Source: a virus. Taken from it: 40,522 nucleotides of DNA. Below, piece by piece: positions 1 through 40,399 of the stretch (position 1 is its first letter; every line of letters begins with the position of its first letter). The stretch is taken from positions 1 to 40,522 of IMG/VR virus record IMGVR_UViG_3300027513_000031; one strand, 5' to 3'. The notes beneath the pieces were generated by a model. It saw only the letters and a list, made by a program, of their open reading frames with translations, was not told where the DNA came from and searched no databases. A program made the translations under genes and the position numbers.

Positions 1-19
1 CTTGCTTGTATGGGTTCGT

Positions 20-35
20 AGCCCCGATCGGGGCT
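20..35. repeat. 16-bp perfect palindrome, copy 1
   Basis: AGCCCCGATCGGGGCT, identical to its reverse complement. The 14-bp core GCCCCGATCGGGGC recurs at 95-108, 38431-38444 and inside 40052-40073, always between genes. It could be a protein binding site or an RNA hairpin that ends or processes leftward transcripts. No run of T follows in either direction. Confidence 0.75.
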
Positions 36-40
36 GACGT

Positions 41-59
41 GTGTGGATGTCTTCCACAC
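41..59. repeat. Short inverted repeat (hairpin)
   Basis: GTGTGGA at 41-47 pairs with TCCACAC at 53-59 around a 5-nt loop. The left arm resembles a DnaA box (TGTGGATAA) with mismatches, but the perfect boxes lie further right at 563-571 and 760-768. Confidence 0.5.
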
Positions 60-76
60 CCCAAAGGCTATCGGCT

Positions 77-90
77 GATTGGTACCAATC
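77..90. promoter_or_regulatory. Operator-like 14-bp palindrome
   Basis: GATTGGTACCAATC is a perfect palindrome with an AT-rich arm, unlike the GC-only palindromes around it. Its form fits a dimeric repressor site, but no matching regulator can be named from the sequence. Confidence 0.4.
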
Positions 91-94
91 CACC

Positions 95-108
95 GCCCCG
101 ATCGGGGC
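95..108. repeat. 14-bp perfect palindrome, copy 2
   Basis: GCCCCGATCGGGGC, the core of the dispersed intergenic palindrome family, only five bases from the GATTGGTACCAATC site. Confidence 0.7.
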
Positions 109-225
109 TGGCCCGCCCCTACCCCTCCCCCCATGACGGTGGGGGCGTGGTGCGACAGCAGATTAGTTGTAGGAGTCCCACCGAAATCTTGTAATCAACT
201 TCCAGAAGGCCATCGAACAGGTGTT

Positions 226-546
226 CTAGATTTCGTCACTCCACCAGCAGTCATAGAGAGTTCCGCATTCGCGGCAGGAATACTGCGCCAGCCATCCACC
301 GGCTGACTCCTGTAGGCGATGAGGCCAGTTGAGCGTGTCTGAGCCACAGGGACAGGTCGAATCTCCGAAGCGGCAGGCGTGGCTGAGGGCGACGATCAGT
401 TGATCGAAGGACTCCCAGGTGCTGCCGTCGCCTTCGTGGGCGTGGAGGTAGCCGTCGAGGGCCTCCATCAAGGCGTCGAAGCTGGCGCTTGGCCTGGTGC
501 CGTAGGAGCGGCTGATCTTGGCGACGATGGACAGGTGATCGGTCAT
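226..546 (-). CDS. Small zinc-ribbon-like protein, unknown function
   Basis: A 106-residue protein. The first half looks helical and carries no known motif. The second half has paired cysteines (CPC near residue 65 and CREC near residue 91), as in a small zinc ribbon. The ATG start is supported by GAAGGAAG a few bases upstream. The gene is the first one after the proposed origin and reads away from it. Its leader overlaps the DnaA box at 563-571, so initiator binding could affect its expression (inference). I do not recognise a family. A role in replication control is possible only by position. Confidence 0.7.
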   Translation of the reverse strand: MTDHLSIVAKISRSYGTRPSASFDALMEALDGYLHAHEGDGSTWESFDQLIVALSHACRFGDSTCPCGSDTLNWPHRLQESAGGWLAQYSCRECGTLYDCWWSDEI

Positions 547-562
547 GGTCTTCCTTCTGGGT

Positions 563-571
563 TGTGGATAA
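563..571 (-). promoter_or_regulatory. DnaA box, left
   Basis: Perfect consensus TTATCCACA on the minus strand. It overlaps the leader of the leftward gene that starts at 546. Confidence 0.65.
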
Positions 572-576
572 GTAGG

Positions 577-756
577 TTTCCGCCCCCTGGGTTTCGTTTC
601 CGCCCCCTATAGGGCGGGGGGCGGAAAGTCGGAAACTGGTTATCGCCCCAGGGGCGGAAAGGGTTTCTTGGGGCGGAAACCCTCTGAGCAGGTACGATGT
701 CGGGGCGGAAACCCCCCCATTCGGGGCGGAAACCCCAAATAGGGCCGGGGCGGAAA
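577..756. repeat. Iterons, GGGGCGGAAA x 8
   Basis: Copies at 577-586 and 597-606 are on the minus strand. Copies at 618-627, 651-660, 670-679, 702-711, 723-732 and 747-756 are on the plus strand. Start-to-start spacing of the direct copies is 33, 19, 32, 21 and 24 bases, so they are not in one coding phase. Confidence 0.85.
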
Positions 757-759
757 CCC

Positions 760-768
760 TGTGGATAA
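760..768 (-). promoter_or_regulatory. DnaA box, right
   Basis: Second perfect TTATCCACA (minus strand), abutting the last iteron and six bases from the stop codon of the primase-helicase gene. Confidence 0.65.
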
Positions 769-774
769 GTCACG

Positions 775-2745
775 TCAATCCTCCACCAACGAGCACACGA
801 TCTTGGGTCGACCGCCCGCTCCTGCCACCTTCAGTGAGCGCTCGACTACCTCTCCACGCTCGATCAGGATGCCCAACGCCGCCCTCATCCGCTCCTTCTT
901 GCCACCCACGCCCTCGATCAGTTCGTTGCGTCCCACCGGACGCCCCTGGCGTCTCAGGTACCGCTTGATCGCCAACTGTGCCTCGGTCATCGTCGCCTGG
1001 TGGCGCTCGTCGTCGGTTTCGGCGATCGCTTCCGCCAGTCGCCCCACCTTCCAGTGGATCGAGCCGATGTGGACGCCGTACTCGGGGTCGAACCGCCCCA
1101 GGCTCAGGTCGATGGCGTAGTCGCCACCGCCCCACTGGCGGCTCCCGACCCGCAGCTTCAGCCGGAACCGGCCTTCTTCGACCTGAGGCTTCTCCCGGTG
1201 ATCGACGAGCATCCACGAGTCGCACCATTCGGCGTGCCCGGCACCCGCCAGGCGCTGCAGGCCGTCGCCGGTCCCTCCGGTGTTCAGGTGATGGTTGATC
1301 ATCGCCGTGCGCTCCACGCCGACCGCCTGACGCCAGGCGGAAAGCACCTGGCCGATGTCGGTCAGGAGTGCCGACGAGGCGACAGTCGAGCCCGGAGCGT
1401 AGGCGTACCAGGGATCGAGCCACACGATCGCCGGATCGAACTCGTCGATCGCCGCTCGGACCGAATCCAGCATCAACGGCGACGTGATCGGCGCTGTCAT
1501 CGTCGTGTAGCGCAGCCAGGGTCGCAGATCGGCGATCGACGCCCCGTACGCCTCGGTGACACGCTCGACCCGGCGCAACATCCCGACTTCGCCGCCCTCG
1601 CCCGACAGCATCAGCACCCGCTGGCGCTCAGGAACCTCGAAATGGCCGAGAACTGGCACTCCGAGTGCGATCGCCACCACCGTCGTCAGCGCCAAATACG
1701 ACTTCATCGACTTCTCGGGGCCCCCGAGTTCGCCATGTGTGCCGCTCATCAACAGCCCTTTGGCGTGCCATTCGATGGCTGGCAGCACGAATGGGTCGGG
1801 TAGCTCCCTGAACTGGATCAGGGCTCTGCTATTGTCACCCAGCAGGTCAGGCGACTCATCCTCGTCGGGCTCTACGGCCGGGCTGGGTGCTTGCGAGAGT
1901 GCCCGCCCGACCGCCCACGTCACGATCCCCTTGAACTCGCGTCCGTGGCGTTCCGGCGGCGTCACCGAGCGCCACCACTCTTTGATGATCGCGTGGGCGG
2001 TCACGAAGTTGTAGTAGCCGTCGCGGGCATCCTCGGCGGCTGCCGTCATCAGCCACACCGCGTACGGATGGCGTCCCCGCCGTGGGTCGCCCGCCAGCTT
2101 CGGGTTCCAGTCGGCACACGCCTTGCGGATCGACTCGATCTTGTTGGGACGTGTCCCCTCGCCCGCACAGCGGTTGGCGAAGGCGATCACTTCCGCTTCC
2201 GTCGCCACGTCGGTCTTGCCGCCGTACTCGCTCAACCAGTCGGGATATGGGAACGGTCCGGCGTGGTTCAGTTCGGTGATATCGAGCCCGACCCGATCGG
2301 GCCCGGCGATCACGATGTAGCCGCCCTTGCCGCGGACCTCGCCCCAACCCTGATCGGGAAAGCCTGCGGTCCCGTTGCCGCACTCGAAGCCAGGCATCTT
2401 GAAGATCAGATGGAGGCCGCGCTTGGTGACGCTGATCGCCCCCGACGACATAATCTCGGACACCCACGACGGGAACAGCGCTTCGTCGACATCCAGATCG
2501 ACCGCCATGTATCCGTCGAGCCCCAGCGCCCAGGCGACCGAGACCTGATCGCCCCACTGTTCGACCGCCCGCGTGAAGTCTTCGACGACGTGGTTGGTGG
2601 CGCTCGATGCCAACTCGACCCAGCCGTAGCCGGTCATCGGACGCTTCTCGACGGTGTGGACCGGGAACACCCGCAGCCCGTATCTCGAATAGACGAGTGC
2701 TCGATCGACTATCCCGTTGCCGGTATCGTTGCTATTGTCACTCAT
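775..2745 (-). CDS. Bifunctional primase/polymerase with RepA-like helicase domain
   Basis: A 656-residue replication protein. Residues about 12-160 look like an archaeo-eukaryotic prim-pol domain, with an acidic DLDVD at 83-87, a KRGLH segment with His112, and RGKGGY near 138-143. Residues about 325-560 form a RecA-fold RepA/DnaB-like ATPase with Walker A GGPEKSMKS (341-349), Walker B IVWLD (440-444) and a MINHH segment (482-486). Residues about 585-655 look like a winged helix that could bind DNA. This layout is known in phage and plasmid replication proteins that prime and unwind at their own origin. The iteron array begins just after its stop codon, so it is the natural initiator candidate. 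ATG is chosen. AAAGGAAG lies about 15 bases upstream, a little far. No separate replicative polymerase is present in the window. Confidence 0.85.
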   Translation of the reverse strand: MSDNSNDTGNGIVDRALVYSRYGLRVFPVHTVEKRPMTGYGWVELASSATNHVVEDFTRAVEQWGDQVSVAWALGLDGYMAVDLDVDEALFPSWVSEIMSSGAISVTKRGLHLIFKMPGFECGNGTAGFPDQGWGEVRGKGGYIVIAGPDRVGLDITELNHAGPFPYPDWLSEYGGKTDVATEAEVIAFANRCAGEGTRPNKIESIRKACADWNPKLAGDPRRGRHPYAVWLMTAAAEDARDGYYNFVTAHAIIKEWWRSVTPPERHGREFKGIVTWAVGRALSQAPSPAVEPDEDESPDLLGDNSRALIQFRELPDPFVLPAIEWHAKGLLMSGTHGELGGPEKSMKSYLALTTVVAIALGVPVLGHFEVPERQRVLMLSGEGGEVGMLRRVERVTEAYGASIADLRPWLRYTTMTAPITSPLMLDSVRAAIDEFDPAIVWLDPWYAYAPGSTVASSALLTDIGQVLSAWRQAVGVERTAMINHHLNTGGTGDGLQRLAGAGHAEWCDSWMLVDHREKPQVEEGRFRLKLRVGSRQWGGGDYAIDLSLGRFDPEYGVHIGSIHWKVGRLAEAIAETDDERHQATMTEAQLAIKRYLRRQGRPVGRNELIEGVGGKKERMRAALGILIERGEVVERSLKVAGAGGRPKIVCSLVED

Positions 2746-2775
2746 GGCAGCGCCAGAACGCTTCCTTTCATCAAT

Positions 2776-2784
2776 GGGTTGATG
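2776..2784 (-). promoter_or_regulatory. Conserved leader motif CATCAACCC
   Basis: On the minus strand CATCAACCC is followed by ATTGATG and then GAAAGGAAG ahead of the primase-helicase start. The same motif precedes the genes starting at 4239 (GATCAACCC), 36805 and 38393, with weaker forms before 39996 and 546. Confidence 0.5.
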
Positions 2785-2787
2785 GAC

Positions 2788-2815
2788 GAAGGCCCGCCTC
2801 CACAGGCGGGCCTTC
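2788..2815 (-). terminator. Intercistronic hairpin
   Basis: GAAGGCCCGCCT (2788-2799) pairs perfectly with AGGCGGGCCTTC (2804-2815) around a four-base loop. It lies after the stop of the membrane peptide at 2842-2949 and before the leader of the primase-helicase gene. There is no U tract, so it may be a U-less terminator, an attenuator or an RNA processing site. Confidence 0.6.
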
Positions 2816-2841
2816 GCTATTCCCCGGACGGACTGTCGACG

Positions 2842-2949
2842 CTACACCTGTCCGGCGAGCCACACGGCAGCCCGCCACAGGCACAGCCACAGCAGGATCA
2901 CCAACACCGGCAGCCACCATGACACCGGGTCATCCTCGCCGAATCGCAT
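2842..2949 (-). CDS. 35-residue single-span membrane peptide
   Basis: This very short gene starts MRFGEDDPVSWW and continues as a leucine/valine/tryptophan-rich segment (about residues 11-33) ending AGQV. It looks like one membrane helix behind a short acidic N-terminus. The ATG overlaps the stop of the previous gene as TGATG, which argues for coupled translation and for a real gene despite its size. It is the last gene before the hairpin at 2788-2815. Function is unknown. It is one of several tiny membrane proteins in the leftward blocks. Confidence 0.6.
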   Translation of the reverse strand: MRFGEDDPVSWWLPVLVILLWLCLWRAAVWLAGQV

Positions 2950-3038
2950 CACACGTAGAGGATCAGCAGGATGATCGCGGCGGCGACAGCGATCGTGAAC
3001 ATCGCCGTCGCCAGCGCGCTGCCGCTGCGGTCGTTCAT
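2949..3038 (-). CDS. 29-residue single-span membrane peptide
   Basis: A short polar head (MNDRSGSALAT) is followed by a hydrophobic helix rich in Ala, Ile and Leu that runs to the C-terminal YV. The ATG overlaps the stop of the zinc protein upstream as ATGA, and its own stop overlaps the next start as TGATG. The gene is locked into the operon on both sides, and that is the main evidence that it is translated. No family can be named from 29 residues. Longer upstream starts in this frame are unlikely because they would overlap the whole preceding gene. Confidence 0.6.
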   Translation of the reverse strand: MNDRSGSALATAMFTIAVAAAIILLILYV

Positions 3039-5817: not shown

Positions 5818-6281
5818 TTCGGCCCCGTCCATGCGTACGTCGCGATCAGTAGGGCCTCGGCGCGGTTGTGATCCTTCTTGCGCTTCAGGTCGTCGAGCCG
5901 TGATGGGAACAGTTCGCGGGCCCGCATCCGCGACGCCTCTTTGCGTTCGGTCGACTTCACGTTGGAGAGTCCGACCGAGCGTTGCCATTGGCTCGGCTTG
6001 ACGCGCCACAGCGTGATTCGCGAGCAGAGCACGGTGGCGATGATCAAACCCTCTGTGCGTCCCATCGAGTAGTTCGCGAGACTGCCATTCCGTCCATTGG
6101 CCCGGTTGTCTTCAAGCCACACCGAACGCACTCCCCAGGTGTCCGTGAGTAGCTCTTGCAAGGCAACCGGGTCGATGCCGTGCGGGCCCGATGGGAGGTC
6201 GACGACATCGACCTCCCCGTCATCGGTGTCGATCAGTGCCGCTGCGCCATCGACCCCAGGATCAATGCCGCAGACCCTCAT
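5814..6281 (-). CDS. RuvC-like Holliday junction resolvase
   Basis: A 155-residue RNase H-fold nuclease. The N-terminal GIDPGVDGA carries the first catalytic Asp (residue 7). VWLEDN supplies Glu57, VKPSQWQ lies at 94-100, and KDHNRAEALLIA carries Asp137 and the C-terminal helix, as in RuvC. Length and motif order fit phage crossover-junction endonucleases, which resolve branched DNA before packaging. The ATG overlaps the RHH gene's stop as ATGA. The family call is firm. Substrate choice in this phage is inferred. Confidence 0.85.
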   Translation of the reverse strand: MRVCGIDPGVDGAAALIDTDDGEVDVVDLPSGPHGIDPVALQELLTDTWGVRSVWLEDNRANGRNGSLANYSMGRTEGLIIATVLCSRITLWRVKPSQWQRSVGLSNVKSTERKEASRMRARELFPSRLDDLKRKKDHNRAEALLIATYAWTGPK

Positions 6282-6469
6282 CGCACAGGCGGCAGCGATT
6301 GGACGAGCAGGTTGACCATCAGGCGGTTGATCGAGATGCCGCGCTTGCGCGCTTCGGCGATCAACTGCTCTCGGTAGAAGTACGGCACGCGCAGGTTCAT
6401 CTGCACCGTGACATCCTGCGGATCAGCCCGCGGCGTGACTGTCTGTGTCTCAATCCTCATGGGGTACAT
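6278..6469 (-). CDS. Ribbon-helix-helix DNA-binding protein
   Basis: A 63-residue protein. About residues 20-60 (VTVQMNLRVPYFYREQL, then ISINRLMVNLLVQSL) match the Arc/CopG-type ribbon-helix-helix pattern: one strand, two helices, dimeric. Such proteins are usually repressors of nearby promoters. It is early in the leftward operon, close to the divergent promoter region at 6682-6734, so it may regulate leftward or late transcription (inference). No good ribosome binding site is visible. A second ATG at 6460 (MRIETQ) is an equally plausible start. Confidence 0.7.
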   Translation of the reverse strand: MYPMRIETQTVTPRADPQDVTVQMNLRVPYFYREQLIAEARKRGISINRLMVNLLVQSLPPVR

Positions 6470-6734: not shown

Positions 6735-7169
6735 GTGGCTGACAAGGAAGACTTCAAGCGCCAGCTATTCATCGAGTGGCTGTGTACGCCCAAGCGCGAA
6801 CGCGAACCGTCGACACAGGAGGCGTTCGCGCGCGAGCACTTCATCAACCCCGACACGCTCACCCGGTGGAAGAAGGAGCGCCAGTTCCTGCTCGACTGGG
6901 AACAGCACTATCTCGCCACGATCGGTAGCCCCGAACGGAAGCAGAACTTGCTCGACACGTTGTACCGCACCGGCACCGACAACGACGATCCACGGCACGT
7001 CCAAGCTGCTGCGAAGTACATGGAACTCGTTGATGGTTTGAAGCCGCAGAAGCTGGACATCACTGTCAACCGTCCTGCCAAAGACCTCAGCGACGAAGAA
7101 CTCGACGCCATCGCCGCTCAGTTCGCTGCCCGCGAGCGCGCCGCCAGGGAGCAAGAGCGGGCGTCGTGA
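6735..7169 (+). CDS. Terminase small subunit
   Basis: A 144-residue protein. The N-terminal half ([24 protein letters not shown], read in two parts around residue 28) is a helix-turn-helix of the phBC6A51/insertion-type small terminases. A helical middle ([17 protein letters not shown]) and a charged C-terminus follow. It would recognise the packaging site and activate the large subunit. The GTG start is used because the nearby ATG at 6725 runs into a stop. It is the first late gene. Unusually, eight tail and unknown genes separate it from the large terminase at 12773. Confidence 0.75.
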
Positions 7170-8182
7170 CAACTGGGGGGCGCGCGGGATTCGAGTCGCG
7201 AACCCGCGACCCGGAACGCCGTGCGTTCTTCGATCTACAGCGCCGCATCACCCATGTCGAAGGGCTGACCGCTGGTGCGCCGTGGGACTTCCTGGGCACG
7301 ATCCCTTCACCCGGCCCACCCACCACCGCCCAGGACCCGTTGCCGCACGAAGACGGCGACATGTGGATCGACTCCAACGGCATTGGCTGGGTCTGGAACG
7401 GAACAGCCTGGGTCAATGTCGGCAGCATCCGAGGGCCCGCAGGCTCTACCGGACCACCGGGCCCGGCCGGACCGACAGGGGCTACCGGGCCAGCGGGCCC
7501 GGCCGGTGCCGGGACTGACGAGGTTTCGATCAGCCTCACTGATCCCGGCGGGGCCTACGAGTTGTGGTACGACCCCGACGCTACCGCGCCGCCTGCCGAG
7601 ACAGGACCGATGGGACCGCCAGGACCACCGGGACCGCAGGGCGATCCCGGTCCCACAGGCCCGACCGGCGAGACGGGGCCGATCGGTCCACAAGGTCTAC
7701 AAGGCGATCCTGGTCCCACTGGCCCGACCGGTGCGACCGGGTCTGCCGGTGCCGATTCGGTCGTGCCCGGCCCGCAGGGCCCGCAAGGCATCCAGGGGCT
7801 GACCGGTCCGCAAGGTGATCCCGGCGCGCAGGGACCACAAGGTCCGCAAGGCGTCAAAGGTGATACCGGAGCGCAAGGCGTCAAAGGCGATACCGGCAAC
7901 ACTGGGGCACAGGGAACGCAGGGCGTCCAAGGTCCGGCCGGGCCTGCCGGTGCCGATTCGGTTGTGCCTGGCCCGCAAGGTCCGCAAGGCATTCAGGGCA
8001 TCCAGGGTGCGACCGGGCCTGCTGGTGCTGATTCGGTCGTGCCCGGACCGCAAGGCCCCAAAGGCGATACCGGTAATACCGGAGCGCAAGGCATCCAAGG
8101 CATCCCCGGTACCGGGATCGCGGTCGGTACGACGCCACCGGGTAGCCCTGCCGTCAACGCCTTGTGGGTGGACACGACATGA
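7166..8182 (+). CDS. Collagen-like tail appendage protein
   Basis: A 338-residue protein. The N-terminal domain (about 1-85) is globular and includes the [18 protein letters not shown] pattern. Gly-X-Y repeats run from about 88 to 117 and again from about 145 to 318, rich in GPQGPQG, GPTGPTG and GVKGDTG. Between them lies an [12 protein letters not shown] segment that recurs in the 10285-10875 protein. Phage collagen-like repeats form trimeric fibre shafts. GTG overlaps the small terminase stop as GTGA. The coding repeats at 7748-8075 make this gene prone to length change. Confidence 0.8.
7748..8075 (+). repeat. Tandem coding repeats in collagen-like gene
   Basis: Three near-identical units of about 50 bp start at 7748, 7949 and 8024. 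Each encodes [12 protein letters not shown]. Shorter GVKGDTG-coding repeats lie between them. These are protein repeats, not a CRISPR array. Confidence 0.8.
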
Positions 8183-10879: not shown

Positions 10880-12280
10880 ATGGGTGTTCTGAAAGCACGA
10901 GTCGGCGGGGCATGGGTCAACGTCGGCGTCAACGGGGGGCCGCTGCCACCCGGTGGCGTGCTCGGCGACATCCTCGTCAAGAACTCGGCAACCAACAGCG
11001 ACGCGCTGTGGGGCACGACCATGCCGAAGTTGAAGCTGACGCCCGGCGACGTGGTTGGCCTCGATCAGACCAACCCGGCATTGATGATCGGTGAACCGAT
11101 CGGTCAGAACCTCGCCGCGTATTGGGGCGGGTTGCAGAGTCGAAACAACAGTGCCGCGAGCACGCTGCGCTTCAACTACTACGGCGGCGAAGTCATCGCT
11201 GGTGGCGGCAACGCAGCGCAGTACCCCGGTGGGTTGACTATCGCCAACTCGGCTCACGCCACGTCCAAACGAGCGCAGCTAAACATCGGTACGGACCCCG
11301 GCTGGCAGATCGGTCAGGATCTCAGCGCCAACGGCACCAAGGACTTGTACGTCTATCAACAGACCAATGGTCGAACGCCGTTCCACATCAACGCCGCTGC
11401 CGACTTCCTGACGTTGCTTGGTGGCGGCGGCACGATCAAGCTGCCCGACACGGCGTGGCTGCGGTCGGGCAGCTACCAGTTCACGAGCGCCACTGGCGGC
11501 AGTGTCTTGTTCAGTCACAACGGCACCAACTTCGATGTGAACGGAAGTGCCTATTTCTCGGGTGAGGTCTACGGCGGCAACAACTTTTGGTTCCGGGTTC
11601 GCGGCAACACCGGCATCCATTGGGAAAGCTGGGGCGGCGGCTGGAACATGACCGATGCCACCTACATGCGGTGCTATGGCGGCAAGACGATCTACACATC
11701 CGGCAACATCCTCTGCGACGGCACCGTCATAGCTCCCGGCGTGAACGTCAGTGCATCGCTCAACATGAATCGCGGTTGCTACATCCGGCTGTCGGGATCG
11801 GCCGACAACAACCATCGCCTCAACCACACGACCGGCACGCCTGCCGGTTCCGGCGAAGCGATGGACGGCCCGCAGTTGGTTGGCTACAACAATGTGATTC
11901 TGCAGTCGATCACTGGCGCGCAGTTCATGTTGTCGACCGGTGGCAACACGTTCATTAACGCTGGGAAGTCGTACACGACGTTCTCGTCGCGTGAGCACAA
12001 AGAGAACATCATGCCGCTCGACCCGGACGAGTCGCTCGAAATGGTCAGGCGCTGGCGTCCCGTCGAGTTCGATCTGAACACGGACGGCACGCACGCCGAA
12101 GGATTCATCAGCGAGGATCACGTCCATGTCACGCCTGCGATGGTGAACGTCTGCGCTCCCGACAGCCTGCGGCCGGGATGGGCGAACTCCGTCGACTACG
12201 GCGGAGGCACTGTCCGGTTGACGGGAGCCGTTCAGGCACTACTTCGCCGTATCGAACAACTGGAAGGAAGGGCCGCATGA
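10880..12280 (+). CDS. Tailspike/fibre with S74 self-cleaving chaperone domain
   Basis: A 466-residue fibre. N-terminal MGVLKARVGGAWVNVG matches the 8790 protein. The middle is Gly/Asn-rich and probably beta-helical or an S74-type spike. From about 368 to the end is an intramolecular chaperone: FSSREHKENI with candidate nucleophile Ser369/370 and Lys374, then MVRRWRPVEFDLN and a C-terminal coiled coil ending RRIEQLEG. In known S74 proteins this domain trimerises the fibre and then cleaves itself off. It is the most likely host-recognition spike. Confidence 0.75.
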   Translation: MGVLKARVGGAWVNVGVNGGPLPPGGVLGDILVKNSATNSDALWGTTMPKLKLTPGDVVGLDQTNPALMIGEPIGQNLAAYWGGLQSRNNSAASTLRFNYYGGEVIAGGGNAAQYPGGLTIANSAHATSKRAQLNIGTDPGWQIGQDLSANGTKDLYVYQQTNGRTPFHINAAADFLTLLGGGGTIKLPDTAWLRSGSYQFTSATGGSVLFSHNGTNFDVNGSAYFSGEVYGGNNFWFRVRGNTGIHWESWGGGWNMTDATYMRCYGGKTIYTSGNILCDGTVIAPGVNVSASLNMNRGCYIRLSGSADNNHRLNHTTGTPAGSGEAMDGPQLVGYNNVILQSITGAQFMLSTGGNTFINAGKSYTTFSSREHKENIMPLDPDESLEMVRRWRPVEFDLNTDGTHAEGFISEDHVHVTPAMVNVCAPDSLRPGWANSVDYGGGTVRLTGAVQALLRRIEQLEGRAA

Positions 12281-12468: not shown

Positions 12469-12776
12469 GCCAGAGCACTGTGGCGCGAGCCGCCAACGAT
12501 CCCGACTTGCGTGACCGTGTCACCGCTGCTGTGTTCTCCGAAGCGATCGGCAACCCGGCGCTCGTTGACACACAGTTCGCTCGACGCGTGATTGAAGGCA
12601 GCGCCAATCTCACCGGCATGTTCTGGGCCGTCGCCGACGCCGTCGATTTGGAGTACGAGTCGGGCGTCAACGCCGGACGTGGCGCACCCGGACACGACCA
12701 GGATGTCGTTACCGATGGTGCGATCACGTCAGCCGTCGTCGCCAACTGGCCCCCGGATGTCGTCACGGTGCCGTGA
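12465..12776 (+). CDS. Unknown late protein (103 aa)
   Basis: Linked on both sides by ATGA and GTGA overlaps. The protein is mildly acidic with two predicted helices (LRDRVTAAVFSEAIG, VIEGSANLTGMFWAVADAVD) and a glycine-rich loop (GVNAGRGAPGHD). No membrane segment, Cys motif or known family is seen. By position, between fibre and large terminase, it may be an assembly factor. Confidence 0.55.
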   Translation: MSQSTVARAANDPDLRDRVTAAVFSEAIGNPALVDTQFARRVIEGSANLTGMFWAVADAVDLEYESGVNAGRGAPGHDQDVVTDGAITSAVVANWPPDVVTVP

Positions 12777-14410
12777 CTGATCTGCTCGACGACCAGTACT
12801 CGTTCGAGGAAATCTTCAACGAGCGTGAATGGCGCAAGTGCGCGCCCAACACGCAGGACCCGGCCAAACTGCTCGACGGCTTCATCTACTTCTGCGAGAC
12901 GTATTGGTACATCCGTCATCCCGAGAAGGGGCGGATCAAGTTCGAGTTGTTCGAGGCTCAGATCGAGACAGTCCACTCGTGGCTCAACCATCGCTACAGC
13001 TTGATCCTGAAGGCACGCCAGATCGGATTCTCGACGCTGCTCGCTGCTTTCGCCTTCTGGCTCTCGTTCTTCTACAGCGATCGCTCGATCCTGATGCTGT
13101 CACGCACCGAGCGCGAAGCGATCAAGCTGTTGAGCAAATCGAAGTACGGCTACCAGTTCCTGCCGGACTGGATGAAGTGGCGCGGCGGGCCCGTCAACCA
13201 AACGCTGACCACGATCCAGTTCACCAACAACAGCTACATAGAGTCGTTGCCATCAGCCAGCGACCCAGCCCGAGGCGAATCCGCCTATCTCGTTGTCGTC
13301 GACGAACTCGCCTTCCTGCCCAACAGCGAGGAAGCCTGGGGCGCGATCGAACCGGTAGCAGACGTTGGTGGACGCATCATCATGCTCTCTACTGCAAATG
13401 GTGAGGGCAACCTGTTCCATCGTCTGTGGGGCGAAGCGATCAGCGGCAACAACCGCTTCGAGCCGCTGTTCTTTCCGTGGTCCGCGAACGGTCGCGACCA
13501 AGCCTGGTACGACGCCCGTTCGGCCGAACTGCCTGACTGGCAGATGGCGCAGGAGTACCCCGATAATCCTGAGGATGCGTTCCTGAAATCAGGACGCCCG
13601 GTCTTCGATTTGCGAATGCTTCGTGAGATTGAGTCGACTGATCCACTCACGCGCGGCTACCTGACTCCCGAACTTCGCTTCGTAGAAGACGGGGGTGCCC
13701 TCCGCGTATGGTCGTGGCCCAATGATGACGATCGTTATGTCGTGGGCGCTGACCCTTCCCAGGGGTTGGAGCACAGCGACAAAGCATCGGCGCACGTCAT
13801 CAACGCTCGTAACGGTGAAGTAGTAGCGCATTGGCACGGCCTCATCGACCCCGACCTGTTCGGGAGTGATGTCCTCGTACCGCTTGGCCGTTTCTATCGT
13901 CAGGCCCTGCTCGGGGTGGAATCCAACAATCATGGACTGACCGTCCTGAAGGCCATCCAGCGCGCCAAGTACTTCCCGATCTACTACGAGCGATCCCCGA
14001 AGTACAAACACTCTGTCCCAACCGACGTGCTCGGATTCCACACGACGCAGGTTAGTAAGCCGCTCATGATCGACGAGTTGGCGAAAGAGCTACGCCCCGA
14101 GGGCAAGCTGAAGCTGCACGACGCTGAGACGCTCGCCGAGTTGCGGACGTTCGTGCGAACCGACAAGGGCAAGATGACCGGGTCGCCGTTCGACGACCGG
14201 GTGATCAGCCTGGCGATCGCTGTCCAGATGCTGAAGTTCGTGTGGTTCGCCGAGTTCACGCCGAAGAAGGACCCACCGCAGGGATCGTTGGGCTGGTGGG
14301 AGCGTCAGACGTTCGGTCAGAGTTTCAGCGACGTGCTCGCGGGTACGGGCCGTAAGTCGATCACGAAGGACCGCGAACCGATTGGTTCATTCGCGGTACG
14401 TCCGAAGTGA
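12773..14410 (+). CDS. Terminase large subunit
   Basis: A 545-residue packaging motor and nuclease. The ATPase part has the Walker A variant KARQIGFST (80-88), Walker B LVVVDE (173-178) and coupling motif STANG (206-210). The RNase H-like nuclease part has GADPSQG (Asp327), VESNNHG (Glu383) and DDRV (474-477). Order and length fit the family. GTG overlaps the previous stop as GTGA. With the small subunit at 6735 it cuts and packages the genome into the prohead. Confidence 0.9.
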   Translation: MTDLLDDQYSFEEIFNEREWRKCAPNTQDPAKLLDGFIYFCETYWYIRHPEKGRIKFELFEAQIETVHSWLNHRYSLILKARQIGFSTLLAAFAFWLSFFYSDRSILMLSRTEREAIKLLSKSKYGYQFLPDWMKWRGGPVNQTLTTIQFTNNSYIESLPSASDPARGESAYLVVVDELAFLPNSEEAWGAIEPVADVGGRIIMLSTANGEGNLFHRLWGEAISGNNRFEPLFFPWSANGRDQAWYDARSAELPDWQMAQEYPDNPEDAFLKSGRPVFDLRMLREIESTDPLTRGYLTPELRFVEDGGALRVWSWPNDDDRYVVGADPSQGLEHSDKASAHVINARNGEVVAHWHGLIDPDLFGSDVLVPLGRFYRQALLGVESNNHGLTVLKAIQRAKYFPIYYERSPKYKHSVPTDVLGFHTTQVSKPLMIDELAKELRPEGKLKLHDAETLAELRTFVRTDKGKMTGSPFDDRVISLAIAVQMLKFVWFAEFTPKKDPPQGSLGWWERQTFGQSFSDVLAGTGRKSITKDREPIGSFAVRPK

Positions 14411-14441
14411 GAGAATCCACCCAAATCAAGGAGGCAAGGAC

Positions 14442-14681
14442 ATGACCGGTAAGAAGCAAGATTCCGATGTCGAGGCGTTGACCGAGTTTCAGGGCGGTGC
14501 CACGCTCGAAGACCCCGAGGTCGGACCCGAGGATCAGATGGAAATCAGCAAGTGGAGCCAACAGCAGTTGGATGAGCGCATCGCCAACGGCGAAGGCGAA
14601 GCGGTACGCCAGGAACTTGCCGAAGCTGCTGAGGGCCTGAAGTCCCAGACTCATGGTGGCCGCAAGGACGCTGACGCCTGA
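14442..14681 (+). CDS. Small acidic late protein (79 aa)
   Basis: A strong ribosome binding site (AAGGAGG) lies about eight bases before the ATG, after a 31-bp gap, so it may be made in quantity. The product is very acidic and Gln/Glu-rich, with helical segments (SQQQLDERIANGEG, RQELAEAAEGLK). It ends HGGRKDADA. It has no known family. It might be a head assembly or minor scaffold protein. Confidence 0.6.
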   Translation: MTGKKQDSDVEALTEFQGGATLEDPEVGPEDQMEISKWSQQQLDERIANGEGEAVRQELAEAAEGLKSQTHGGRKDADA

Positions 14682-15361
14682 TGGCCAAGACCCGTACCCA
14701 GCGCCATCAGCGTCCCCACGCCAAGGGCAAGCATCAGCGCAAGGGGCAGCGCGCTGATAAGCGTGCCAACCCGCCGTCCGGTGTGAACTGGGGGACATTG
14801 GGGTGGCCGGGTACGGCTCCCGGTGTCGTCGTTCCGTACGCGTTCCTGACGTGGGAGCAGTTGTTCGTGACTCCGCCAGGGAGCGCCTGCATCCGCGCTA
14901 ATCAGCCGGTCGGTTCAGCGGCCACGCACCTGTTCGTCAGCGAGACGTTCGGACCCGGCAGCGTCGGCGATCCGTTGGCGGGGATGATCGTCAATGATCC
15001 GATCCGGCTCTACAACTCCGCCAATCTGGCGGAGTGGATCGAATACAAGATCACCGCCATCACCGATGCCGGTGCGTACAAGGACTACACCGTGACGTAC
15101 CAGGCGACCGGTGGCGGTGGTTGGGCCCCGTTCCCTGGGATGGGTGTCGGCATCATCGAGCGCACCGGTTCACCGAGCGAAGACCCGATGGTCTACGACC
15201 CCGGCGATCACACCATCGACGAAGTCAAGGCTCATGTCGACGGGCTGGCGGTGGACGATCAGCGCGACGACATCATCCAAGCGATCCTCAACTTGGAGCG
15301 AGCCAACAAGAATCGAGCCACCCTCGTTTCGTGGCTCGATCAGCAAACCGGCGTCGAGTGA
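14681..15361 (+). CDS. Probable minor head protein, unknown fold
   Basis: A 226-residue protein. The first 30 residues are a highly basic tail (KTRTQRHQRPHAKGKHQRKG), typical of proteins that touch packaged DNA or RNA. The remainder is a beta-rich domain with many Thr/Gly (TVTYQATGGGGWAPFPGMG) and a C-terminal helical part (DDIIQAILNLERANKNRATL). TGATG couples it to the gene before. Position between terminase and portal suggests a head protein. A DNA-condensing role is an inference from the basic tail. Confidence 0.5.
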   Translation: MAKTRTQRHQRPHAKGKHQRKGQRADKRANPPSGVNWGTLGWPGTAPGVVVPYAFLTWEQLFVTPPGSACIRANQPVGSAATHLFVSETFGPGSVGDPLAGMIVNDPIRLYNSANLAEWIEYKITAITDAGAYKDYTVTYQATGGGGWAPFPGMGVGIIERTGSPSEDPMVYDPGDHTIDEVKAHVDGLAVDDQRDDIIQAILNLERANKNRATLVSWLDQQTGVE

Positions 15362-24849: not shown

Positions 24850-26567
24850 GCAACGACGAGTACTACGACGACTACTACCCCCAGACCGATCCCGGCATCT
24901 GGGCGATGCAGCAGTTCATGATGCCTGGAGCAGGCGGCTACCCGGAGTCGGGTTACATGCCCGCTCCGGGGATGCCGTCGCCGTACATGCCGCTGGGCCC
25001 GATGGGGATGCAGCCAGAGATGGACCCGTTGCTGTATCAGCAGGTGATGTCGCTGCTGCAGCCGTCGCTCACGTCGAAAGGCAAGTTGGAGCCGTACGAC
25101 ATCGACTACCAGGGCAAGATTCGCAACGCCCAGCAGGATGTCTACGGCAGCTTCGACGATCCGATCTGGACGTTGCTGTCGGGGCTCGGGGCGACGACGC
25201 CGGAAGCGTTCGATGACATCACCGAGCGCAAGCCGATGGAGTTGAAGGCGCAAGCGGAACTGGCGATCAAAGCGCAGATGGGTGGCATCGAAGGACAGAT
25301 CGCGGAGATGGTGCTGACCGGCATGTCGCCGATGGCGGCTGCCTCGGCGGTGCGTGCTGCGATCGAACATCCAGATCAGGTCGTGGGCGGGATGAGCCAG
25401 GAAGAAGCCGACAACCTGCGTGGTCAACTGCCGACGACGATGATCCAGAAGCCCGGCGGGTTCGGCCAGGAGGAAGGCCCGGATTGGGGCGCGCTCTACA
25501 AGACCGCCAATGACATTGCCAATCCGTACATCGCCGAGCAAGCGATGCTCGCCCAGCCCGGCATCGAATACGACGAGGAAGGCCGGGCCTACACCACATC
25601 GAAGAAGCCTTCGGCATTGCAGGAGTTCCTGCAGAAGACCGGCATCCCCGATCCCCGCGACACCTACGGCGCGGACTTCTTCGCCAAGCAGAACCCCGGC
25701 GAAGCGATGACGCTGCTCGATCGCATCTCGGCGTCGGAGGGACGCTTGAAGGATGCCAAGAAGGCGTACACCGGGTTCCTCACCGAGTCGGCGAACCGCA
25801 AGCGCAACCTCGACCAGGACGCTCGCCAGAAGGAACGCTATGCCGGGGAGATGCAGGCGTACGGCGAACGCCTAGCCCCGACCGGGGCTGCGGCTGCGAC
25901 CGGGTTGCGCGAGTACATGTCCAACATCAGTGCCGCCAGCGGTCGCGGCGACGCGCCCAACAAAGACGCTATGGCGGGCCAGCGAGCGCTGCTCAATCAG
26001 ATTCTGGAAGAAGGGCCACGCGCCACCGGTCAGATGGGCGGCATCCCCCGGCAGCGGGGGATCGACATGATGGGCAACCCGATCTACACGTCGGACTCGG
26101 ATGTCGACATGCTCGCGGCGTCGACCGGGATGGGCTTCCAGTCCGGCGGGCCGACTGGTTCCCCGGCGCAGGTGGAGCGCTCGTTGGGGCGTCCAACCGC
26201 CCCACGGTTGTCGACGTACAGCGAGCCGCAACAGGGTGAGAACCTGATCCAAGGCCAGATGCGTGGACTCACCAACATGTTCCGTCAAGCGGCGGGAGGC
26301 AGCCGCCGTCCGGGCCCGGAGAACAACCCGAAGCCGTTGACCGGCACCGCCAAGAGCCGGGGCAAAGACATCGTCCGGCGACGTGAAGACCTCGGGCGTG
26401 CCAACATGAACCTGATGCTGGCACTGGTACCGCAGTTGGCGTTGGCGAAGTCGGGGCGCACGCCGATCAGCGACGTGTTCCAACAGCGGATGCAACCGTT
26501 CTACGCGTCCGGCGCAACCGGACAGCCAGGGATGCCCTGGCAGTATCCGCGACCGCCGGGACGGTAG
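24846..26567 (+). CDS. Internal virion candidate (573 aa)
   Basis: ATG at 24846 overlaps the preceding stop as ATGA. The N-terminus is acidic and Tyr-rich (MSNDEYYDDYYPQTDPG), followed by Met/Pro-rich sequence, then long helices with Asp/Lys (about 290-370: LDRISASEGRLKDAKKAYTG). It ends in an Arg/Pro-rich tail. No enzymatic motif is seen. It is directly followed by the 2479-residue gene and likely acts with it in the virion. Confidence 0.5.
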   Translation: MSNDEYYDDYYPQTDPGIWAMQQFMMPGAGGYPESGYMPAPGMPSPYMPLGPMGMQPEMDPLLYQQVMSLLQPSLTSKGKLEPYDIDYQGKIRNAQQDVYGSFDDPIWTLLSGLGATTPEAFDDITERKPMELKAQAELAIKAQMGGIEGQIAEMVLTGMSPMAAASAVRAAIEHPDQVVGGMSQEEADNLRGQLPTTMIQKPGGFGQEEGPDWGALYKTANDIANPYIAEQAMLAQPGIEYDEEGRAYTTSKKPSALQEFLQKTGIPDPRDTYGADFFAKQNPGEAMTLLDRISASEGRLKDAKKAYTGFLTESANRKRNLDQDARQKERYAGEMQAYGERLAPTGAAAATGLREYMSNISAASGRGDAPNKDAMAGQRALLNQILEEGPRATGQMGGIPRQRGIDMMGNPIYTSDSDVDMLAASTGMGFQSGGPTGSPAQVERSLGRPTAPRLSTYSEPQQGENLIQGQMRGLTNMFRQAAGGSRRPGPENNPKPLTGTAKSRGKDIVRRREDLGRANMNLMLALVPQLALAKSGRTPISDVFQQRMQPFYASGATGQPGMPWQYPRPPGR

Positions 26568-38460: not shown

Positions 38461-39996
38461 TCAGTTGGTGGTGATGTTGCCCGTCACCGGCTTGCCGGTT
38501 TCGGTCTCCAACTCCACCGTGGCGTTGTTGATGCGATGCTCGACGACGCTGTCGGCCATCTCGCGGACCATGTCGTAGTCGGTCGCATCGTTGACCGCCA
38601 CGCCAGCGTCGAGTTCGGTGCGAACCGCCTCGCGCATGATGTCTTCGACCGTGACCTTCTCGGGCTTGCGGGCAGCGGCACCCTGCTGCAACTCCCACTG
38701 ACGGCGCAACAGCTTGGCTCCGGTCATCAGGTCGTCGGTCGTGACGACGATGTTGTCGGCGGAATGGGTGCGGGCGATCACGGAACGGATCACCTTCGAG
38801 ATGCCACCGACGATCCATGCTGGGGTGTAGCCCTCGTTGGCTTCGAACGCCGCTTCCCAATGGATGTCGTCGGCCAGCTTCTCCTTCAAGCGCTGCTTGA
38901 TCAGACGCGTGAACGCATCCAAGTCGGGCAAGCCGACTTCGATGAAGTCATCGACACGACCCTGACGCAGGAACGCATCGTCGACCATCTCGGGGAAGTT
39001 GGTGGTCATCACGATCAGGATGCGATCGGACTTGCTGATCGAACCATCGAGGTTCTCCAACGCCAGCGACCGGTCGTGCGTCGCCATCTTCTCGATGTCT
39101 TCCATGAACAACCCGACGATCGAATCCTTCGTCATGTAGTTGCGGGCGATCGCCAATCCCCTCGCCATGTCCCTCGCCGTACCACCTGACGGGCAGATGA
39201 CCACGGTGTAGCCCATCTCGAACATGATCGACTGAGATGTCTTGCCGAGCAGCGTCTTGCCGGTTCCCGGCTTGCCCACCAACAGCACGCAGCGCTTCGG
39301 GTTCTCGCCAGCCTTGATGTTCTCATCAAGATCGACGATCGACGAAATGCACGCCACGTTGACGGCGTCGGACAGGTCGCGGTTGAACACGACCTGACTG
39401 CGATCGAAGCCAGCCACGTTGACGAACTGATAGTCCGACGTGATGACCTGACCCCGGTAGATCGAACGCTGTTCGAGTTCCTCACGGATGTAGGAGAACA
39501 GCCCGTTGATCGCAGCCTGGCGGTTGCGCTTGAACCGGAAGATGATCGAGCCGGTGCCGTCGTTGTTCCTGTCGGCCTTGCACATGCCATCGAGTCCGGG
39601 GATCGTCATCCAACCGCTGGGGATCGTCTCGTAACGCATGATCCCGTCCCGGTCGAAGCCGGTCTCGACGACCTGTTCCTCGGGGACCTTGAACGGCCCC
39701 ACCTTCAACGAGCGGGCGACACCCATGTCGCAGCGACGCAACACGCGGGTCATGCACACGGCGACATCGTTGTAGCCGTACACGAGTACCTCGGATTGCT
39801 CGACGTACTCGCGCATCGCCCGCTCGCTGTTGGCGTAATCCTCGACCGAAGCCTCGGTGTCGTCGGCGAAGTGCCCCGGTGCCTTGTACTGGTGCTCCCC
39901 AGGGATGAACACGATGGGCATCGCGTTGTCGGGGATCGCTCCGACCTTCTTGACGAGGTCGCGGAACGAGATGGGTGAGAGTTCCTTGCTTGCCAT
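38461..39996 (-). CDS. AAA+ ATPase, BCS1/CDC48-like
   Basis: A 511-residue protein. About residues 1-225 form an N-terminal domain of unknown fold. The AAA+ module follows: Walker A GKPGTGKT (241-248), Walker B-like GLFMED (295-300), sensor-1 MTTNFPE with Asn333, and FLRQGRVDDFIEVGLPD with the arginine finger near 344/347. The order ED instead of DE in Walker B and the LRQGRVD box resemble BCS1-type ATPases rather than ClpX or replication loaders. It probably forms a hexamer that remodels a protein substrate. The ATG at 39996 follows AAAGG; an ATG six codons earlier is an alternative. Confidence 0.8.
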   Translation of the reverse strand: MASKELSPISFRDLVKKVGAIPDNAMPIVFIPGEHQYKAPGHFADDTEASVEDYANSERAMREYVEQSEVLVYGYNDVAVCMTRVLRRCDMGVARSLKVGPFKVPEEQVVETGFDRDGIMRYETIPSGWMTIPGLDGMCKADRNNDGTGSIIFRFKRNRQAAINGLFSYIREELEQRSIYRGQVITSDYQFVNVAGFDRSQVVFNRDLSDAVNVACISSIVDLDENIKAGENPKRCVLLVGKPGTGKTLLGKTSQSIMFEMGYTVVICPSGGTARDMARGLAIARNYMTKDSIVGLFMEDIEKMATHDRSLALENLDGSISKSDRILIVMTTNFPEMVDDAFLRQGRVDDFIEVGLPDLDAFTRLIKQRLKEKLADDIHWEAAFEANEGYTPAWIVGGISKVIRSVIARTHSADNIVVTTDDLMTGAKLLRRQWELQQGAAARKPEKVTVEDIMREAVRTELDAGVAVNDATDYDMVREMADSVVEHRINNATVELETETGKPVTGNITTN

Positions 39997-40018
39997 TTCG
40001 GTAACGCCTTTCATTTGT

Positions 40019-40027
40019 GGGTTGTGG
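40019..40027 (-). promoter_or_regulatory. Degenerate leader motif
   Basis: On the minus strand CCACAACCC, matching the leader at seven of nine positions, followed by ACAAATGAAAGG before the AAA+ gene start. Same form as the leader of the 226-546 gene. Confidence 0.35.
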
Positions 40028-40051
40028 ATTGCGGGGTGGGTGTGAGATGAG

Positions 40052-40073
40052 GTCAGCCCCGATCGGGGCTGAC
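40052..40073. repeat. 22-bp perfect palindrome
   Basis: GTCAGCCCCGA with its exact reverse complement, containing the family core GCCCCGATCGGGGC. It lies two bases beyond the stop of the 40076-40399 gene and before the leader of the AAA+ gene, the same arrangement as at 38421-38454. Confidence 0.8.
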
Positions 40074-40075
40074 GT

Positions 40076-40399
40076 TCATTTGGGGTCATCGCCGAGCATG
40101 TTGAGCGGGATGGTGATGGTTCCGAGCAACTGATCGGTCTCCGGGTTGGGGAGGTCTTGTGTCGTGGCATGACACCGAATCTCCAATCCGCTCAGGTCGC
40201 CGTTGGGGACGAGGTAGATGAGTACGTTCGACGTTGATCGGTCGGGGAACACTTCCCAACCGATCAACGCCAGCCGCGCGTCGGACCACGGCATGTACGT
40301 GATCCGATTGACCGGATCGCGATACGCAGTGATGGCGAGCAGCTTGGGATCATCCAACTCGTCCCACGGTCGGGGCTTGCGCCCTCTTGGTGCTGTCAC
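40076..40399 (-). CDS. Unknown protein (107 aa)
   Basis: GTG at 40399 is chosen because AGAAAGGA lies six bases upstream. An ATG two codons earlier (40405) would sit directly against that site. The protein starts with a basic stretch (RGRKPRPW), then beta-rich sequence (LIGWEVFPDRSTSNVLIYLV) and ends PLNMLGDDPK. No motif is recognised. It precedes the AAA+ gene in the leftward operon and could be a partner, which is only a guess from position. Confidence 0.55.
   Translation of the reverse strand: MTAPRGRKPRPWDELDDPKLLAITAYRDPVNRITYMPWSDARLALIGWEVFPDRSTSNVLIYLVPNGDLSGLEIRCHATTQDLPNPETDQLLGTITIPLNMLGDDPK

Follow-up and report, generated by a model that had tools for sequence, protein, structure and literature searches.

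A conserved iteron array 3' of a phage primase-helicase gene tracks the helicase half of the encoded protein and probably serves as a replication origin

The window, the whole 40,522-bp stretch of viral DNA analysed here, comes from a podovirus-like phage. Its proteins have PHROGs matches to terminase, portal, scaffold, major capsid, endolysin, exonuclease and Holliday-junction resolvase, and the nearest named terminase (48%) belongs to an environmental record titled Podoviridae sp. Among the proteins scanned, a part of the window's ORFs, no match to an integrase, ParA or DNA polymerase was found. The window also encodes a collagen-repeat protein (7166-8182) and an S74-peptidase (endosialidase chaperone) protein (10880-12280), both probably host-binding structures. 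The locus studied here consists of a primase-helicase gene, the non-coding gap at its 3' end and a small ORF, with the following features:

226 to 546, minus strand: small ORF of 106 aa, adjoining the array
563 to 571, minus strand: DnaA box TTATCCACA, on the gene-distal side of the array
577 to 756, no strand assigned: iteron array with eight exact GGGGCGGAAA copies and the degenerate GGGGCGATAAC, kept in relatives
577 to 586 and 597 to 606, minus strand: GGGGCGGAAA copies
597 to 627, no strand assigned: head-to-head iteron pair with perfect 11-bp arms and a 9-nt centre
618 to 627, 651 to 660, 670 to 679, 702 to 711, 723 to 732 and 747 to 756, plus strand: GGGGCGGAAA copies
639 to 649, minus strand: ninth, degenerate iteron GGGGCGATAAC, kept in relatives
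760 to 768, minus strand: DnaA box TTATCCACA, on the gene-proximal side of the array, after the stop codon
775 to 2745, minus strand: primase-helicase initiator gene, 656 aa, identified by its Pfam domains
778 to 1032, minus strand: predicted winged-helix domain, aa 572-656 (AlphaFold2 and Foldseek)

The exact repeat GGGGCGGAAA occurs eight times in the entire window, always inside the array, compared with 0.08 in shuffles, and the repeat count at the array is 8 versus at most 3 elsewhere (k = 9-10; 799 200-bp windows of the record). The description in the initial annotation of eight exact copies, two inverted then six direct, lying between two perfect TTATCCACA boxes was borne out at every position, with no further copy of either sequence in the record. 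The 206 bp that it gave for the gap is the distance from box to box; the intergenic gap itself runs from 774 to 547, between the primase-helicase stop codon (775) and the next start (546), and measures 228 bp. The array does adjoin the primase-helicase gene, on its 3' side and not upstream; the stop codon and the first iteron are 18 bp apart in the window and a few bp apart in the relative L003. The spacing of the copies follows a period of about 10.5 bp (vector strength 0.81; with only eight positions, p is roughly 0.005). The locus thus has the several short, near-identical, phased repeats beside an initiator gene that characterise an iteron origin. On the gene strand, the head-to-head pair forms the hairpin TTTCCGCCCCC-CGCCCTATA-GGGGGCGGAAA, and the gap folds better as single-stranded DNA than shuffled sequences do (z -4.3). 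No promoter-like or terminator-like match lies inside the array, and the reading of its hairpins as an intrinsic terminator was discarded for want of a terminator-like site. A search of positions 1-3000 of the window against Rfam gave no credible match.

Pfam places a Prim-Pol domain (PF09250) at aa 17-151 of the primase-helicase and an AAA_25 RecA-type helicase domain (PF13481, E 2.3e-17) at aa 320-488. The AlphaFold2 model of aa 572-656 has a winged-helix topology (pLDDT 79.8), and its Foldseek matches in the PDB are largely winged-helix DNA-binding proteins (TM 0.55-0.72), with a best E of 3e-3 and none below 1e-3. The full-length AlphaFold model was unusable (pLDDT 41.9, pTM 0.29), and sequence searches of the PDB with the whole protein and with its C-terminus returned nothing meaningful. 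Mobile elements are known to carry this layout of Prim-Pol, RepA-type helicase and winged helix, and recognition of the origin has been proposed as the task of their winged helix (PMC5862659). A plasmid collection gave no homologue, and named phages gave only distant helicase matches (28-29%); in the three named-phage regions inspected, the gene is directly followed by a thymidylate kinase gene, leaving no room for an array. A pattern search for GGPEKSMKS-like helicases retrieved known members only. Since a peptide-pattern scan of GTDB genomes found no homologue of the initiator or the terminase, no host is assigned.

Relatives were drawn from public contigs scanned by primase-helicase, terminase and exonuclease, all of them metagenomic, partial records. 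They form eight further lineages: L003, L005, L118/G016, L119/G012, L155, G035 (with G026), L170 and L176. The truncated or near-duplicate records L139/L157, L006, L138 (an identical copy of L119/G012), L004 (a near-duplicate of L003) and G026 were not counted separately, and L002 is the window's virus again (99.97%). A scan for TCGGTGGGACTCCTAC returned the known relatives and further contigs; other viral contigs with paired GGGGCGGAAA were set aside, their pairs being unrelated. The 569-aa AAA ATPase (phrog_10440) encoded at 38461-40170 on the minus strand of the window is 61% conserved in G016. An array lies 3' of the gene clearly in six relatives (L003/L004, L005, L118, L119, L155 and L176) and in weaker form at the same place in L170 and G035:

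L003/L004: GGGGCGGAAA, 7 copies
L005: GGGGCGGAAA, 8 copies
L118: GTTCCCA/GGTTCCC, 7-8 copies
L155: GGTTCCC
L119: ACCTGTCTG, 7-9 copies
L176: CGTTCCCC with two tandem TTATCCACA; primase gene at 12832-15042
L170: about three GAGGGGTAC copies with hairpins, not the top repeat window of its locus; primase gene at 12638-15070
G035: imperfect CGTTC(C/T) copies only, exact k-mers being no better than chance

The initial annotation had pointed to homologous phages as a check, and in close relatives the array is indeed kept beside the gene, with a motif that differs between lineages. The arrays of all relatives contain an inverted pair of the local motif. In L170 and L176, the primase gene encodes another ATPase half and is followed directly at its 3' end by repeats of its own, which suggests from sequence that the arrangement extends beyond close relatives.

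Such an array could also be a set of operators, through which the C-terminus of the primase-helicase only controls its own operon, the next gene or copy number while initiation takes place elsewhere. The position of the array just upstream of the next ORF and the presence of inverted, operator-like pairs agree with this explanation, as would covariation of motif and protein, which fits any cognate binding site of the primase-helicase. However, the next gene is unrelated between lineages, yet the array is kept: the 106-aa ORF of the window has no relative that could be found, and other lineages have unrelated small ORFs in its place. Moreover, eight phased sites with adjoining DnaA boxes exceed what an operator usually needs, and promoter-like and terminator-like matches are missing from the array. 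We therefore consider operator function alone unlikely.

The DnaA box TTATCCACA is found exactly twice in the window, both times on the minus strand (0.09 in shuffles). The form TTRTCCACA adjoins the array in seven of the nine lineages (the window, L003, L005, L118, L119, L155 and L176), amounting to 10 boxes observed near arrays versus 0.024 expected; none adjoins the array in G035/G026 or L170. A box on the gene-distal side is also present in L003/L004, L005, L118/G016, L119/G012 and L155, while outside the window a gene-side box is seen in L155 only. The side and orientation of the boxes vary among lineages, and in L176 both stand together within the array region. In L003, L005 and L118, the next ORF probably starts at a GTG that overlaps the box (TGTGGAYAA), which may constrain the sequence further. 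The involvement of host DnaA suggested at the outset thus gains from the recurrence of the boxes, but bracketing by two boxes, restricted to the window (with its duplicate L002) and L155, is not a conserved trait. The boxes in seven of nine lineages would also agree with initiation by host DnaA alone, the repeats then serving packaging, structure or another role; one or two boxes are, however, few for an origin fired by DnaA alone, and two lineages have none. A packaging signal, for its part, should track the terminase, which is 77-90% identical across iteron types where it can be compared. Initiation by DnaA alone is accordingly a most improbable explanation.

The arrays were then compared with the initiator domain by domain. 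The window, L003 and L005 share the same iteron, with helicase identities of 89-96% and C-terminal identities of 83-89%, and the Prim-Pol of L005 is only 41-45% identical to the other two; for the window and L005, the values are 41% (Prim-Pol), 90-91% (helicase) and 89% (C-terminus). The window and L118, which have different iterons, share 55% in Prim-Pol and about 22-25% in the helicase and C-terminus (multiple alignment). Likewise, L005 and L155 differ in their iterons and are 71% identical in Prim-Pol, 24% in the helicase and 21% in the C-terminus. L118 and L155, with related GGTTCCC iterons, are 43%, 70% and 39% identical in the same three parts, and the Prim-Pol of each is nearer to that of a phage with another iteron. 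From these identities, the iteron motif tracks the helicase/C-terminal half and not the Prim-Pol domain. In this comparison, no change of motif is seen without a change in the helicase/C-terminal half, as expected of a cognate initiator, and none of the other early proteins tested segregates with it.

At the DNA level, L005 and L155 are about 70-86% identical over most of Prim-Pol, about 40% over the helicase, C-terminus and array, and 70-79% after the array, with the low-identity stretch extending from about position 6,933 to 8,195 of L005. The two phages therefore differ by a clean exchange of exactly the helicase, the C-terminus and the array between conserved flanks. The corresponding segment of the window is:

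572 to 1939, minus strand: exchange cassette of helicase, C-terminus and array, with 84% DNA identity to L005 and diverged flanks

There are only two clear independent exchanges, which makes this strong anatomy and not a large-sample statistic. In sequence, the helicase half and the array behave as an exchangeable specificity cassette, which suggests that phages trade the putative origin and the half of the protein that would read it as one matched unit, perhaps as an escape from origin-directed defences or competitors. Because the helicase and the C-terminus are exchanged together, it is by fold and precedent that we propose the predicted C-terminal winged helix as the iteron reader.

The same comparison bears on a partition role, with the array acting as a parS-like centromere bound by a small ribbon-helix-helix protein in a phage held as a plasmid-like prophage. 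There is a precedent in the mycobacteriophages Miko and Rachaly, whose parS direct repeats are located immediately downstream of repA (PMC7157519), and a 63-aa protein of the window (6278-6469, minus strand) weakly matches Arc-like repressor and 'partition' PHROG families. This protein is 59% identical in L003 and 82% in L005, which have the same iterons, but also 47% in L118 and 65% in L119, which have others; being conserved across iteron types, it does not track the motif, which follows the helicase/C-terminal half instead. With neither a ParA family match nor an integrase among the scanned part of the window's ORFs, partition appears very unlikely. Overall, the partition, operator and DnaA-only explanations fare worse than an origin on the covariation test, although an operator or copy-control role of the same protein keeps some probability.

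One further element is shared by phages with different initiators:

150 to 240, no strand assigned: conserved, initiator-independent element, AT-rich, with GTAGGAGTCCCACC (169-182) and a GAACN4GTTC palindrome (215-226)

Over 80-bp stretches, stability in the window is lowest at positions 160-239, where the minima for 50 and 120 bp are also located. The array had been described as GC-rich and devoid of an obvious AT-rich unwinding element; it is GC-rich, but this least stable stretch lies about 330 bp away, beyond the small gene. The surrounding block is recognisable in eight of nine lineages (L176 left out) regardless of initiator type, and in the relatives the stretch is among the less stable ones, with varying rank and not always as the least stable. 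We regard the element as a candidate for unwinding or regulation. The near-palindromic GTAGGAGTCCCACC adjoins the AT-rich stretch and is kept across lineages with different initiators. The GAACN4GTTC palindrome GAACAGGTGTTC is kept at this position in every lineage but L005 (AAACN4GTTC) and is rare elsewhere in most records. It resembles the Gram-positive SOS (LexA) box and may point to damage control or hint at an actinobacterial host. A different palindrome, (A)GCCCCGNNCGGGGC(T), is found at 20-35 and 95-108, and again at 25874, 31238, 38430 and 40055. Two of its copies precede the next gene, in non-coding DNA, and L003, L005, L118 and L119 have two palindromes of different sequence in that place; these look like operators of a fast-changing regulator.

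Taken together, the repeats, which are conserved and in the window also phased, and a motif that covaries with the helicase/C-terminal half make it likely that the array is the phage replication origin, bound by the helicase-winged-helix half of the primase-helicase with the help of host DnaA. An iteron origin used by this protein, as first put forward in the initial annotation, is well supported by the comparison, with the array conserved and its motif covarying with the helicase and C-terminus. On the other side, the array lies close to the maximum of the cumulative GC skew and not to the minimum, which counts against an origin, although transcription bias confounds this measure. As to mechanism, we infer binding, unwinding, ring loading, DnaA action and origin activity in the following manner. 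The winged-helix C-terminus would bind the iterons along the same helical face, and the head-to-head pair could let two helicase rings assemble in opposite directions. Host DnaA on the boxes at the array edges may help to open the DNA or supply parts of the host replisome, and the Prim-Pol domain would lay the primers.

The proposed likeness to lambda is a poor match. Lambda has its iterons within the O gene and an initiator other than a helicase; the present array is located in non-coding DNA 3' of the gene, and the phage protein carries a helicase domain. By analogy, self-recognising primase-helicases of the SaPI and P4 type, with the origin downstream of the gene, seem to fit better; P4 in addition has a second site, crr. 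The SaPI Rep/ori and SCCmec Cch2 systems of Staphylococcus islands have, as here, an initiator helicase and a short-iteron origin directly downstream of its own gene, and SaPI Rep reads these iterons with its C-terminal domain (PMC7581432). The phage helicase is set apart from SaPI by domain family and element type, being an AAA_25 domain fused to Prim-Pol in a phage with terminase, portal, capsid and endolysin genes; in addition, DnaA boxes adjoin its array and the protein is without a sequence match to a solved structure. The P4 alpha protein combines primase, helicase and a winged helix binding origin repeats in one polypeptide, the same domain layout, but its primase is of the Toprim type (PMC4234260) and not Prim-Pol with AAA_25. 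The pRN1 ORF904 and phage BIP-1 replication proteins share the Prim-Pol type primase, helicase and C-terminal winged helix, as well as an origin with an inverted repeat directly 3' of the gene (PMC4234260); in them, the helicase is of the SF3 type and one large stem-loop takes the place of iterons, whereas here we find a RecA-type helicase and an iteron array that contains hairpins. The window protein thus has the fused primase, helicase and (predicted) C-terminal winged helix of the P4 alpha/pRN1 type, with AAA_25 in place of an SF3-type helicase. By these tests, given its different helicase type and a phage with virion genes, it is a member of none of the SaPI, P4 alpha and pRN1 classes. RSF1010 brings helicase, primase and iteron-binding functions to an iteron origin through RepA, RepB' and RepC (PMC4234260), three separate proteins compared with one fused protein here.

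For the exchange itself, there is an experimental parallel in the V. cholerae satellite PLE, whose RepA DNA-binding domain and cognate iteron origin function together and are swapped as a module, as origin-swap experiments show (PMC8263062); the initiator is a different one, and the unit swapped here is helicase, C-terminus and array inside a phage primase-helicase gene. Tentatively, and with somewhat more doubt than confidence, we propose a RecA-type helicase/winged-helix/iteron cassette of virulent phages, located in a Prim-Pol fusion gene, repeatedly swapped and with DnaA as co-initiator. It is rare for the origin of a metagenomic phage to be located by sequence. For fusion proteins of this kind, a winged helix setting origin specificity has so far only been proposed (PMC5862659), and the natural chimaeras, by pairing protein halves with DNA motifs, make this directly testable in Prim-Pol/RecA-helicase phages. 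Should each cassette function as a matched unit, several replicons that are ready for use and possibly compatible with one another would become available, as would a case to compare with the origin-swapping arms race between ICP1 and PLE (PMC8263062).
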